A program made the translations under genes and the position numbers. The notes beneath the pieces are model-generated. The model saw nothing but the letters and a program-made list of their open reading frames with translations. It was not told where the DNA came from and made no database searches. DNA of 58,031 nucleotides from Candidatus Syntrophosphaera sp. (GTDB lineage Bacteria; Cloacimonadota; Cloacimonadia; Cloacimonadales; Cloacimonadaceae). Where the stretch lies: the NCBI GenBank assembly GCA_019429425.1, contig JAHYIU010000005.1, positions 1-58,031 on the forward strand. The letters are read 5' to 3'. Below are positions 16,393-20,924 of this stretch, one piece after another (position 1 is the first letter of the stretch; every line of letters begins with the position of its first letter).

Positions 16393-16992
16393 TCAGTTCT
16401 TGAAGAGGAGCTGGTTGCTGCGGGGCCTGAGGTATGATTTGAAGAGGCTGGCGAAGTCCTCGTCTGTGAAGCTGAGCTTATAGCCGCCGTCGGCCGGGGC
16501 GAGGGAAAAACCGCTCTTCATCTGGGGCGAGAATTCCACCTTGAGGCCTTTCTCCGCCGTGCCTTTGAGGCTGCTCAGGAACTGCTCTTCGAGCTTGCCC
16601 TTCATGTTTTCCGAGATGGTGATCAAACCTCCGGATTCCTTCCAGGCAGCAATTGTTTCCAGGATCACCTTCTTGAGGAACTCCGGGTCGCCGGAAGCTT
16701 TGCCCAGGCTGGCGTCGAAAGCCTTGTCCAGAAAGACGTCGGTGAGTTTTTGCTTGACGGCGCTCAAAGTTTGCTGGGCGGCCATCTTGAGGTCGGATTC
16801 GTTGTTCTTGAGCAGGTCCGCGGCCTTCTTTTGGGCCTCGGAAAGCGTCTTTTCCGCTTCGGCTTTGGCTTGGGCCACGATCTTTTCCGCCTCCGAATTG
16901 GCCTGCTCCAGGATCGCCTCCGCCTCGGTTTTGGCCTTGTCCACGCCCTCGTCGTAAACACGCTTCAAAAGGTCTTGCAGCTTGTCGGTCAT
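16393..16992 (-). CDS. atpE: V-type ATPase subunit E (peripheral stalk)
   Basis: A 199-aa peripheral-stalk subunit, first gene of the operon. The N-terminal half (residues about 5-100) is a Glu/Lys/Ala-rich coiled coil, as expected for the stalk. The C-terminal half is a compact domain. ATG 16992 is chosen because GGAG lies six bases upstream; a longer frame continues for 119 codons into repeat sequence but has no support there. A TTGACA on the minus strand at 17049-17054 is a candidate -35 for the operon, although no good -10 is visible. Confidence 0.88.
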   Translation of the reverse strand: MTDKLQDLLKRVYDEGVDKAKTEAEAILEQANSEAEKIVAQAKAEAEKTLSEAQKKAADLLKNNESDLKMAAQQTLSAVKQKLTDVFLDKAFDASLGKASGDPEFLKKVILETIAAWKESGGLITISENMKGKLEEQFLSSLKGTAEKGLKVEFSPQMKSGFSLAPADGGYKLSFTDEDFASLFKSYLRPRSNQLLFKN

Positions 16993-17058: not shown

Positions 17059-17269
17059 TATATGGGAAAAAGGGGGAGAGGGGGAAAGGGCAAAAGGGGA
17101 AAAGGGGGAAAAGGGGAAGAGGCGGAACGGCGTCCGCCTGTACAGTAGCGGCGCTCGCCGAAGCGCCGATAGGAAGGGGAAAAGGGGCTGGCGCTCGCCG
17201 AAGCGCCGAGAGGAAGGGGAAAAGGGGCTGGCGCTCGCCGAAGCGCCGAGAGGAAGGGGAAAAGGGGCT
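17059..17269. repeat. Purine-rich tract and three 40-bp tandem units
   Basis: 17059-17120 is almost only G and A (GGGGAAAA-type runs). From 17150 to 17269 a 40-bp unit occurs three times: GGCGCTCGCCGAAGCGCC, a short spacer and an AGGAAGGGGAAAAGGGGCT tail. The 18-bp head is a hairpin (GGCGCT-N6-AGCGCC). There is no gene. This field occupies the upstream side of the V-ATPase operon. Confidence 0.85.
17121..17173 (+). repeat. 53-bp double-hairpin element, left copy
   Basis: Identical over 53 bp to 20872-20924, in the same orientation. It consists of hairpin 1 (GGCGGA-ACGGCG-TCCGCC), linker TGTACAGTAGC and hairpin 2 (GGCGCT-CGCCGA-AGCGCC). The two six-base loops share a complementary CGGCG/CGCCG, so they could kiss. 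Both copies sit in purine-rich tracts and bracket the helicase island. Confidence 0.88.
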
Positions 17270-17298
17270 GGGGCTCGCCACTGGGGATCCTTATTAAA

Positions 17299-17392
17299 GC
17301 CCGGAGGGCGGCAGTGCATTAGCACGGTATGGAGTGACGCGGCCGGCAAAGGAGCGGAGCGAGTTTGCGGGGCAAGGAACGGAATGCCGTGA
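17299..17392 (+). repeat. Interspersed repeat, forward unit
   Basis: Same block order as the units at 7758 and 7936: CCGGAGGGCGGCAGTGCAT, AGCACGGTATG, GGCAAAGGAGCGGAGCGAG and GGAACGGAATGCCGTGA. As at 7936, it is followed by the C5A/G5T hairpin and then by reverse units. Confidence 0.88.
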
Positions 17393-17420
17393 TATGTGAC
17401 GGGGACTGTGTTCGTGTTTG

Positions 17421-17474
17421 CCCCACCCCCACCCCCAAGGGCAGACTCCGTCAGCCCTGGGGGTGGGGGTGGGG
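17421..17474. repeat. Second copy of the C5A/G5T hairpin
   Basis: CCCCACCCCCACCCCCA (17421-17437) pairs with 17458-17474; the loop region has another short stem, AGGGC/GCCCT. The arms match the copy at 8060-8116, but the loop sequence is unrelated, which shows that the stem is what is kept. Confidence 0.9.
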
Positions 17475-17506
17475 ATATTATATCATTGGGATCATACCTA
17501 CGCTAT

Positions 17507-17863
17507 CACGGCATTCCGCTGCGCTCCATACCGTGCTAATGCACTGCCGTCCTTCGGACTCGCAAAAAGCGACACAACACCAAAACGCCACCCCGCCACC
17601 ACGGCATTCAGCTGCGCTCCATACCGTGCTAATGCACTGCCGTCCTTCGGACTCGCAAAAAGCGACACAACACCAAACCGCCAAAACGCCACCCCGCCAC
17701 CACGGCACCACGGCATTCCGCTGCGCTGCATACCGTGCTAATGCACTGCCGTCCTCCGGACTCGCAAAAAGCGACACAACGCCAAAACGCCAAAACGCCA
17801 TCCCGCCACCACGGCATTCCGCTGCGCTCCATACCGTGTTAATACACTGCCGTCCTTCGGACT
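17507..17863 (-). repeat. Tandem array of four reverse repeat units
   Basis: Units start with CACGGCATTC at 17507, 17600, 17709 and 17810 (spacing 93, 109 and 101 bp). Each has CACGG...CCGTG, GTGC-TAAT-GCAC and GTCC-TTC/CTC-GGAC inverted repeats, then a linker with GCAAAAAGCGACACAAC and AAACGCCA sequence; the last unit lacks the linker. The linker between neighbours changes length by small duplications. Open frames across the array are repeat artefacts. Confidence 0.9.
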
Positions 17864-17912
17864 CATATATCTTCAACAAACCCAATATCGGCCCATTGAT
17901 GGTGTTCATGCC

Positions 17913-17970
17913 CCTCGAACCTTTGCCCAACACAGTCCGAAGGCCATTGGGGATGTGTAAATTGAGCTCC
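17913..17970. repeat. REP-like palindrome, copy 2 (degenerate)
   Basis: CAACACAGTCCGAAGGCCATTGG then GGATGTGTAAATTGAG. It matches the other three copies best over the right arm (TTGGGGATGTGT). 17971-18082 shows no gene or clear signal. Confidence 0.55.
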
Positions 17971-18082
17971 CGCGGGGCGTGGGCGAAAAAAGTGTGAAGG
18001 GAAGAAAGGTGAAGCGAGTATATATTATATAAGGTAGGGAAATACGAGGGTGAAAAGAATAACATTCAGACGCAAAAAGCCC

Positions 18083-18110
18083 TTGACAGATAACCCGGCC
18101 TGAGTATCTT
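18083..18110 (+). promoter_or_regulatory. Candidate promoter of the SF3 helicase gene
   Basis: A consensus -35 TTGACA (18083-18088) and a -10-like TATCTT (18105-18110) are 16 bp apart. If used, the transcript has a leader of about 190 nt rich in G- and C-runs that may fold. No other promoter-like pair stands out before the helicase gene. Confidence 0.5.
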
Positions 18111-18305
18111 GGCATCATAACTCGGTGAAGAGCTTCAATCCCTGTGGGGAAAAGGGTCTCGGGCCTGTTCAAGGGTCATTTTCCCGGCCTTTCCCTGAGG
18201 AGGGGCCAGCCCCTTCCACCCCCACCGGGGAAAACAGCCGCGAGGCCTTTCCAACCTGGCGTTTGGGGGCTTTTCCCGAAACAAAAAAAAGAAAAGGAGG
18301 ACATT

Positions 18306-20039
18306 ATGAGAAATGTGTTAAAACAACTGGTGGAGGACTATCCCGGGGCGTATTACGACCAGCCGGGGTATCCTGACTACAACGATGACGAGGATGGCGA
18401 GGCCGCCCAGCTGGAGCCGAGCCTGCCGGAGATTGGGCTGCCGAATTCCGTTTCGGCAGATCGGACGGAGTCCGATTCTATTCCTGAAGAGCCCTCCGGG
18501 CCCTGTGGCAAATCGGAATATGCCACCCCGATTCCGCCCACCCCGGAAAGAGAGCCCGATCCGCCTTTCCTGACGTCGATGCTGAAGGGAAACGTGGACG
18601 AATACCTCAATCCGGTGGATTTCTGCGGCTTCCTGGCCCATCTGGGCTACCGGCGCTATCTGGCGAACGGAACCTGCGAGCTCGTTTTGCCCAAGGGGAA
18701 GATCCTGGAGAAGGTGGACATGCTCAGAGCCAAGCAGGATGTGGAAAATATGCTCAAGGCGAACGAGCTGATCCAGGCGGTGAAGGACAAGGTCTTTCGG
18801 AAAACCAAGGAATTCTTCAAGATCAAGAACCTGACCACGCTGCCGGAGTTCGAGGGGAAATTCCTCTCCGACACCGCCACGGAATGCTACAAGCTCTATC
18901 TGAATGTCGCGGTGCGGATCACGGCGGACGGCTTCCAGACCATCCCCTATCCCAAGCTGGACCGCTATGTCTGGCGCGAGGACATCATCCAGAGGGCCTT
19001 CGGCTTCGATCCGGACTGGAAGGAGGGGATCTATTACCGCTTCACCAAAAACCAGTGTACTGATCCGCGGAGAAAAGGCCCCGACGGGCAACCTTTGTTC
19101 GATGAAGCGCGCCACACGGCCTATCTCTGCTCCATCGGCTACAACCTGCATGGCTTTAAAAGCCGCCTCCAGCCTTGCCTGACGATCTATTCGGACGCCA
19201 CGGAGGGCGATCGCGAACGCAACGGAGGTTCGGGAAAATCGCTGATAATCCAGCTCCTGGCGGCCATGCAGTCCCCTTCCGGGGCCGCGGGCAACCGCTT
19301 GGTGCTGGAGACCGGGGAGAACCTGAAACGCGATTACCAGCACAATTTCGACAACGTGACGCGCCAAACCAAGGTGGTGGTGATCGACGACCTGGATACG
19401 CGGCGCTTCCGCATCGAGGACGTCTATTCCTGGGTGAGCGTGGGCATGAAGCTGAACAAGAAGGGCCAGGAATCGGAGTTTCTGAGCTTCGAAGAGGCGC
19501 CCAAAGCCGTGATCACGAGCAACAACCCGGTCTCGGGGACCCGCGATTCGGACCTGCGCCGGAGGATGGACGTCCAGCTCCACCGCTATTACAACGCGAG
19601 CCACAAACCGGTCGACGACTTTGGCCGCGGCTTCTTCAACGAGGGCTTCAACGCCCGAGACTGGCGCCAGTTCGACCTCTTCGCGCTGAACTGCGTCCGC
19701 CTCGCGCTGCTCCATGAAGTGGCCACCAAAGGCCTGCCGCCCTACGCCAACAACGTGCTGGAAACCTCGCTGGAACTGGAGATCGGGGACGACCTCGTCG
19801 AATATCTGGACCACTGGGTGGGAGGCGCCCTGGTGGAGAAAGGCGAGGCCAAATTCGACGCCAAGGCCCTCAAAACCAACTACGAAGAGGAATACGGGAT
19901 CAAGCGGAAGGAGTCGTCCAAGAAGTTCAATATGAGGCTGAAAAAGTATGGGGAGCTGAGGAAGCTGGAGGTTTCGGTCAAAGCTTCTTCAAGTATCTAT
20001 TGGTGCACGTTCATCCCGATCGGAGCTGGGCATGAGTAA
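18306..20039 (+). CDS. SF3-type helicase (virus/plasmid primase-helicase like)
   Basis: A 577-aa protein. Residues 1-95 are acidic and Pro-rich, probably disordered. Residues about 95-290 are an unassigned domain. Residues about 295-430 form an SF3/AAA+ ATPase: Walker A NGGSGKS (306-312), Walker B VVVIDD (357-362), the C motif/sensor AVITSNNP (401-408) and the arginine cluster RRR (418-420). The C-terminus resembles a winged helix. SF3 helicases of this type (DUF5906-like) serve replication of viruses, plasmids and integrated elements. No primase catalytic motif is evident. ATG 18306 has AGGAGG five bases upstream; an upstream in-frame extension is not supported. It stands alone except for the iteron-like array and a small gene behind it. 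Confidence 0.85.
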   Translation: MRNVLKQLVEDYPGAYYDQPGYPDYNDDEDGEAAQLEPSLPEIGLPNSVSADRTESDSIPEEPSGPCGKSEYATPIPPTPEREPDPPFLTSMLKGNVDEYLNPVDFCGFLAHLGYRRYLANGTCELVLPKGKILEKVDMLRAKQDVENMLKANELIQAVKDKVFRKTKEFFKIKNLTTLPEFEGKFLSDTATECYKLYLNVAVRITADGFQTIPYPKLDRYVWREDIIQRAFGFDPDWKEGIYYRFTKNQCTDPRRKGPDGQPLFDEARHTAYLCSIGYNLHGFKSRLQPCLTIYSDATEGDRERNGGSGKSLIIQLLAAMQSPSGAAGNRLVLETGENLKRDYQHNFDNVTRQTKVVVIDDLDTRRFRIEDVYSWVSVGMKLNKKGQESEFLSFEEAPKAVITSNNPVSGTRDSDLRRRMDVQLHRYYNASHKPVDDFGRGFFNEGFNARDWRQFDLFALNCVRLALLHEVATKGLPPYANNVLETSLELEIGDDLVEYLDHWVGGALVEKGEAKFDAKALKTNYEEEYGIKRKESSKKFNMRLKKYGELRKLEVSVKASSSIYWCTFIPIGAGHE

Positions 20040-20242
20040 AAAAGTAAAAACCAGTAAAAACCGTTTTTACTTCCAGAACTCAGGAGCAGCATGGGTTGGT
20101 AAAAATGTAAAAATAATTCCTATAGCAGCAGAATTCATTCAAAAATGAAATGGAGATAAGGTGCAAAATATTCCTACGTTTTTACGGATCTTGTCCTGAT
20201 GAGGGATTCAGCGGTAAAAACGGAGTAAAAACAAAGTAAAAA
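20036..20242 (+). repeat. Iteron-like array of ten GTAAAAA motifs
   Basis: GTAAAAA occurs on the plus strand at 20036, 20044, 20054, 20099, 20107, 20214, 20225 and 20236, and as its complement at 20064 and 20179. Several copies extend to GTAAAAACC or GTAAAAACG. The first copy overlaps the helicase stop codon and the last lies 10 bp before the next start codon. The stretch is AT-rich compared with its surroundings. Direct iterated sites beside a helicase are what plasmid origins look like; binding sites for the neighbouring protein are an alternative. Confidence 0.7.
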
Positions 20243-20251
20243 GGAGGGAAA

Positions 20252-20743
20252 ATGAAAGCGATACTCAAAAACATGCTGCTGGCCTATTCGGGCAAGTGCG
20301 ACGGCCTGGTTTTCTATTACAACCCCAGGCTGGACCGGGTGTTGGTGCGCACCATACCCAAGTGGAAACCGACGGAAAACAACCACCGCCTGGCCCGGAT
20401 CGCGCGCAACCTGAAGGCCCTGGGGCTCTCGGAGGGCTTCCGGCTGGACCTGATCACCTACACCGAGATGTACCGCAGGGAATACCGGGAAAACAGCGTC
20501 AACAGTTGGTACAACCTGTTCAACCGGATGATGTGGAACCTGGCCAAAAACTACAGCCTGGAAGGCTCACCGCTCGCTCCGGACGGGACTCCGCCCGCGG
20601 GCGAAACCGCGATCGACCTGGAGACGCTCAACCGCGCCCAGATCACGGCGGGAAACCTGCCCTGCGCCTCGGTCAAACAGGCCGTGGAAGCCGGGCTGCT
20701 TCTGCCCGTGCCCGGGTATGAGAGGCTGGACGGGGCAATGTAA
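20252..20743 (+). CDS. Hypothetical 163-aa basic protein
   Basis: I do not recognise a family with confidence. The N-terminal half is basic and aromatic (GLVFYYNPRLDRVLVRTIPK, then KPTENNHRLARIARNLKALG), followed by a Tyr/Trp/Asn-rich helix (YTEMYRREYRENSVNSWYNLFNRMMWNLAKNY). The C-terminus is acidic and Pro-rich. There is no signal peptide or membrane segment. ATG 20252 has AAGGAGG immediately upstream. It lies behind the SF3 helicase gene across the GTAAAAA array. A DNA-binding accessory of the helicase is possible; the pattern GK-x-x-G-x-V-F-Y faintly recalls DUF6266-like phage proteins, but this is weak. Confidence 0.7.
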   Translation: MKAILKNMLLAYSGKCDGLVFYYNPRLDRVLVRTIPKWKPTENNHRLARIARNLKALGLSEGFRLDLITYTEMYRREYRENSVNSWYNLFNRMMWNLAKNYSLEGSPLAPDGTPPAGETAIDLETLNRAQITAGNLPCASVKQAVEAGLLLPVPGYERLDGAM

Positions 20744-20778
20744 AATGTACAATGTAGAATGTAAAATGGGGTAAAGGG

Positions 20779-20871
20779 GAAGAGGGGGAAGAGGGTAAGA
20801 GGGTAAGAGGGTAAGAGGGTAAGAGGGTAAGAGGGGAAGAGGGGAAGAGGGTAAGAGGGGAAGAGGGGAAA
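20779..20871 (+). repeat. Octamer tandem tract AAGAGGG(T/G)
   Basis: About eleven copies of an 8-bp purine unit, AAGAGGGT or AAGAGGGG, directly before the right 53-bp element. This kind of tract changes length by slippage. The left element is preceded by a comparable G/A tract. Confidence 0.88.
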
Positions 20872-20924
20872 GGCGGAACGGCGTCCGCCTGTACAGTAGC
20901 GGCGCTCGCCGAAGCGCCGATAGG
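20872..20924 (+). repeat. 53-bp double-hairpin element, right copy
   Basis: Identical to 17121-17173 and in direct orientation, 3.7 kb apart. It is followed by a GGGGAAGAGGGGCTGGG tail like the one after the left copy. With the left copy it brackets the reverse-repeat array, the helicase, the iterons and the 163-aa gene. Confidence 0.88.

Follow-up and report, generated by a model that had tools for sequence, protein, structure and literature searches.

We analysed a 58,031-nucleotide stretch of DNA (the window) from a draft genome (2.38 Mb) of Candidatus Syntrophosphaera sp., whose phylum is Candidatus Cloacimonadota. Two identical 53-bp double-hairpin repeats lie in the same orientation at 17121-17173 and 20872-20924 (+ strand; from 17120 and 20871 with one extra matching base), the left copy inside a purine-rich tract that starts at 17064; with the purine tracts included, the similarity extends over about 108 bp at 88%. 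Between them are two credible genes, encoding a superfamily 3 (SF3) helicase (18306-20039, + strand) and a 163-aa protein that we call smallA (20252-20743, + strand; ribosome-binding site GGAGGG), together with ten copies of GTAAAAA. A sequence-only reading had placed all of these features at these coordinates, and all were present there. It had also reported that 17121-20924 contains no integrase, transposase or relaxase, which held in Pfam, NCBIfam and PHROG scans of both genes. An Rfam scan of the window returned tRNAs and nothing else. Upstream of the helicase gene, a repeat family (AGTCCGGAGGACGGCAGTGCATTAGCACGGTATGGAG...) is present in several copies at 17298-17860; it occurs as arrays on many other contigs (C17, C27, C62, C91).

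The SF3 helicase gene

The helicase gene encodes 577 aa (stop codon at 20037-20039), its start at 18306 being supported by the N-terminal motif YPGxYYDxPGYP, which is common to the orthologues. A putative sigma-70-type promoter, TTGACA-N17-ATCTTG (18083-18112, + strand), is kept in the orthologue of genome G008 (L102), and a TTGACA site likewise lies upstream of the gene in G010 (L073). The protein has the motif residues and SF3 AAA+ fold of D5-type SF3 helicases: the Walker A motif GGSGKS is encoded at 19224-19241 (+ strand; alignment A4), and G307, G310, K311, N406 and R419 (Walker A, sensor-1 Asn and Arg finger) are invariant in an alignment of relatives. An AlphaFold2 model (pLDDT 75, residues 1-81 unstructured) compared with the PDB using Foldseek matched SaPI5 Rep (a primase-helicase), NrS-1 PrimPol and poxvirus D5/E5 with E values of 1e-9 to 1e-11 and modest TM-scores (0.3-0.5). 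In this model, the last ~60 residues form a winged-helix-like fold (strand-helix-helix-strand-strand; 19848-20018, + strand; block pLDDT about 80-88), a predicted C-terminal domain and candidate iteron binder. Foldseek matches, invariant residues and dN/dS together mark the protein as a predicted replication initiator.

Profile searches gave no credible match in Pfam or NCBIfam and one match in PHROG. Phages and plasmids encode relatives of the protein, which are primase-helicases, and several of these relatives have matches to DUF5906 and to BT4734-like or Prim-Pol primase domains; the DUF5906 profile (PF19263) matches 7/11 aligned relatives and not the window protein. A Pfam scan detected no AEP primase domain in the latter, and no primase gene lies beside its gene. 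Phage, plasmid and IMG/VR collections yielded no extrachromosomal copy of a window-type SF3 system, and a search of viral contigs for SF3, smallA, its paralogue smallB and the 53-bp core yielded nothing.

Of the 12 other genomes of the genus, 3 have a close orthologue (66-69% identity in the aligned part). With 4/13 genus genomes carrying it, the gene is patchy and therefore accessory. Fixation in all relatives, which the sequence-only reading had named as an outcome that would count against it, was thus not observed. Pairwise dN/dS was 0.34-0.40 against the G008 and G010 orthologues (G005 rows, which were in a wrong reading frame, were left out of the dN/dS comparisons), indicating an intact gene under purifying selection.

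The N-terminal linker (aa about 41-80; 18426-18545, + strand) derives from a dispersed ~100-nt palindromic repeat that lies here in frame; outside this gene, the genome has at least 14 copies related to it. In the AlphaFold2 model, the linker is of low confidence and unstructured. Different repeats have invaded this linker in frame in different species, namely the palindromic repeat, 18-nt tandem repeats and a VIPGLTRDP-type repeat (window 18426-18545; L102 12483-12617; L103).

Iteron arrays in the window and at related loci

The GTAAAAA array (20036-20242), a putative origin, comprises eight forward sites (20036, 20044, 20054, 20099, 20107, 20214, 20225 and 20236) and two reverse sites (20064 and 20179). 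An A+T-rich spacer between iteron groups (20114-20178, 32% G+C) is a candidate melting region. The array was the densest non-tandem 7-mer cluster among 7,981 intervals of 212 bp covering 428 kb of the same genome. The window as a whole contains 13 GTAAAAA sites versus 2.9 expected, a count reached in 0/100 shuffles; the array was weaker when shuffling was confined to the region and its A-richness kept (P = 0.11, 6-mer).

We compared six SF3 genes in five genomes, which fall into two types about 30% identical to each other. After each gene comes an iteron-like set that adjoins or surrounds an A+T-richer spacer, most clearly in five of them, and the motif differs at every locus (GTAAAAA, GTCAAAA, GTTAAAA, GTGACG, GTTACAAA and GGGACG), while spacing is kept within a type. 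In G008, GTCAAAA replaces GTAAAAA directly 3' of the SF3 stop, and the layout resembles that of the window, with an 8-bp pair, an inverted copy about 60 bp on and 11-bp-spaced sites adjoining smallA. In G010, a looser GTTAAAA array lies 3' of the stop. The earlier proposal that helicase and iterons form a replicon was strengthened by this recurrence of a 3' array with altered motif and similar layout, and by the patchiness of the helicase gene.

The type II loci (C72 of the same genome with GTGACG, G025 with GTTACAAA and G003 with GGGACG) share a layout in which a pair of direct sites is separated from a pair of inverted sites by a spacer of about 56-59 bp (A+T-rich in G025), with 8-9 bp between the two sites of either pair. 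When each region was shuffled 3,000 times, the pattern arose at most twice, and its strict 9-bp form occurred in 5 of 5,604 intervals of the window's own genome. The C72 and G003 arrays consist of four sites each, that of G003 having one mismatch and being found by eye; counting 6-mers alone failed to single out the C72 region. At all three type II loci, a long hairpin whose TTCACCC loop is invariant is also conserved upstream of a ~220-aa minus-strand gene (L023 11936-12030; L106 3203-3297; L107 12289-12375). Three of its base pairs are altered on both sides, and it also precedes smallA in two loci; it was missed when we scanned for TTCACC hairpins.

Similar repeats lie 3' of a related gene of G040, and on contig C8 of the window's own genome, a primase-DUF3987 gene has on its 3' side an A+T-rich tract enclosed by a 32-bp inverted repeat. 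Unbiased scanning of other loci for non-tandem 7-mer clusters returned mostly sites adjoining SF3, smallA or AEP genes, the scanned loci being enriched for such places. Further iteron-like clusters were AATCACA upstream of smallA on C14 (L027 10440-10620), AAGTGAG between smallA and smallB in G034 (L108 8900-9280) and TTCTCAA near an AEP gene on C3 (L032 2120-2330).

The smallA family

smallA belongs to a lineage-specific family with 11 matches at 10 loci in the window's own genome. Matches were found in 36/37 genomes of the bacterial family searched, with up to 24 per genome and few relatives outside it; named Candidatus Cloacimonadota genomes, including Candidatus Syntrophosphaera, carry them. 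Its model is confident (pLDDT 91), and searches of Pfam, PDB profiles, PDB and BFVD structures (Foldseek) and phage, plasmid and viral-contig collections found no relative. The profile search that the sequence-only reading had recommended for this protein thus returned no known family, while turning up a family of its own lineage that recurs at other replication-gene loci. We had presumed a resemblance to DUF6266 (PF19781), and found no match among 32 members at E values up to 1; a DUF6266 search of the genomes also gave nothing, with the control of that search likewise matching nowhere.

smallA adjoins SF3 genes in the window, G008, C72 and G003, and probably also in G005, where the contig breaks. 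The earlier question of whether it always follows the helicase therefore has a mixed answer: it does so at these four loci, where the contig is long enough, and is absent from the remaining 1.2 kb of contig in G025. AEP primase loci show a comparable linkage, 10/17 having smallA (among the matches listed) within 5 kb, with 0.7 expected; sibling loci with an AEP domain are found on C8, C3 and C122. In the smallA tree, copies linked to either SF3 type form one clade (support 100/98) that includes G010_C53, and AEP-linked copies fall elsewhere. smallB often follows smallA, and a further gene of ~200 aa recurs at these loci. Close smallA copies within the window's own genome have the gene and little of the flanks in common and are under purifying selection; for one smallA clade, we found no shared neighbour that would mark a fixed host locus.

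On C8 (L024 9922-18228), the AEP-DUF3987 gene adjoining smallA is followed by a type ISP restriction enzyme and by a set resembling a toxin-antitoxin-chaperone system (Gp49/HigB-like, HTH and SecB-like), typical cargo of mobile elements. Contigs often start within a few hundred bases of smallA, as if the region were hard to assemble (L121, L126, L127, L133; G000:C45:2).

A putative replication core and its known counterparts

We consider 18083-20743 likely to be a small integrated element's replication core, with PICI-like Rep-ori initiation. The module combines an intact D5-type helicase, a 3' array of variable motif and conserved layout, purifying selection, patchiness and the linkage of smallA to replication genes. 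Working like the Rep of SaPIs and PICIs, the SF3 protein would act as initiator helicase: its C-terminal winged helix would bind the GTAAAAA iterons that lie immediately downstream of the gene, and hexamers would melt the A+T-rich spacer and load there. The DNA would then be copied by the host's polymerase and primase, or with a primase that an element supplies in trans. smallA would be an accessory protein of this and related replicons, perhaps in origin binding, copy control or maintenance. Binding, unwinding, autonomous replication and mobility are thus all predicted properties of the module. Against a replicon core stands the failure of our searches to find an integrase, relaxase or att site, a recombinase or primase beside the module, or an extrachromosomal copy in the phage, plasmid and IMG/VR collections.

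An alternative is an inert remnant, in which helicase, array and small gene are left over from an integrated plasmid or prophage that can neither replicate nor move any more. The module lacks genes for a recombinase, a primase or structural proteins, many smallA copies stand apart from any replication gene, and a relic of a related element does exist, as the smallA on C7, a decayed sibling, adjoins a fragment of a DUF3987 gene. However, SF3 and smallA are both intact with dN/dS of about 0.2-0.4, a signal of selection that could predate integration, and the full array is kept. Orthologous arrays have moreover changed their motif and not their layout. We therefore regard a remnant as rather unlikely.

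The preferred reading of a replication core can also be widened. The evidence suggests a group of small, integrated, replicating elements that has yet to be described, and the module is best read as part of a diverse Cloacimonadota family with smallA as its common gene. It is rather unlikely that integrated replicons of Cloacimonadota make up a large class, so far undescribed, with smallA/smallB as hallmark instead of an integrase, smallA itself supplying the missing function in mobility, integration or maintenance. As a hallmark gene, smallA could help to find an unnoticed element group among syntrophic bacteria, most of which are uncultured.

The last iteron ends 9 bp upstream of the smallA start codon, hence the iterons could serve as an operator. 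In a purely regulatory circuit, the SF3 C-terminal domain would bind GTAAAAA to control smallA, with no origin function. This is very unlikely, as the type II and C8 arrays follow the replication gene with smallA absent or distant, and the sites of this kind that known D5-type Reps bind are origins.

Despite the identical, same-orientation copies on both sides, a mobile unit that excises or inserts by recombination between the 53-bp repeats, as the sequence-only reading had envisaged, is scarcely credible, given that the repeats were not found flanking the orthologous module in G008, partial relatives of the hairpin recur at C44, and neither a recombinase nor an empty site was found. Scattering of the exact element, which the same reading had said would weigh against it, was not found. 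The genes flanking the module, PhnC and V-ATPase E, are adjacent in none of the relatives examined and lack their usual neighbours here; the locus is a synteny breakpoint, and an empty site is therefore not definable. For the usual neighbour of PhnC, the same genome has no closer homologue than a 54%-identical one on C83, a contig that ends about 0.6 kb upstream of this gene. In this draft genome, misassembly at the 53-bp repeats may have occurred; the module itself is chromosomal and patchy. A V-ATPase E gene lies near or adjoins SF3 or smallA in three genomes at varying distances (L107 4547-5149; L120 8235-9356; window 16396-16992), possibly by chance or as a favoured site.

Among known systems, Salinibacter ruber pSR14 encodes a primase-helicase about 25% identical to the window helicase, with iteron-like repeats 3' of the gene, but is a free 14.9-kb replicon with a terminase gene, and smallA was not found in the plasmid collection. 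Archaeal pRN1-type plasmids also have an origin region just downstream of the primase-helicase gene (PMC4234260), with a stem-loop instead of iterons and a fused primase. The BT4734, PriCT-2 and DUF3987 or DUF5906 primase-helicases of integrated elements are distant SF3 relatives that carry a primase domain, and sibling loci in the window's own genome encode AEP-DUF3987 beside smallA. The window helicase lacks an AEP domain, and the elements of that kind described by Kazlauskas 2018 (PMC5862659) were bounded by integrase att repeats, none of which were seen at the module. In SCCmec, Cch2, a helicase of D5_N/primase-C-term type, binds repeats just downstream of its own gene, a putative origin (PMC7581432), but SCC elements have Ccr recombinases and CCPol-MP, and the module has neither.

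The module shares its layout with the Rep-ori systems of SaPIs and PICIs. It differs from these in its Cloacimonadota host and smallA partner. Scanning both of its genes against Pfam, NCBIfam and PHROG revealed no integrase, and no attachment site or conserved module ends were found. The two credible genes between the repeats include no primase, no Stl/Rpr-like regulator, no terS and no capsid-interference gene; since searches for integrase, regulator and packaging genes came back negative, we did not classify the module as a PICI. The C-terminal domain of SaPI Rep binds iterons directly downstream of the rep gene (PMC7581432), and in PICI origins, whose organization has been described as unlike that of any other known bacterial replicon, two iteron sets flank an A+T-rich region 3' of rep (PMC6092414). 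At the level of sequence, the module reproduces this plan: a D5-type initiator helicase, as in SaPI5, with a predicted C-terminal DNA-binding domain, and, immediately 3' of the gene, an A+T-rich stretch flanked by iterons on either side, the iteron sequence varying by element as among SaPIs and PICIs (such as those with SaPI5 Rep and SaPIbov1 Rep). The same Rep-ori plan would thus exist in a distant phylum, where orthologous initiators have switched iteron sequence with the layout kept, a natural system for studying how D5-type initiators recognize their origins.
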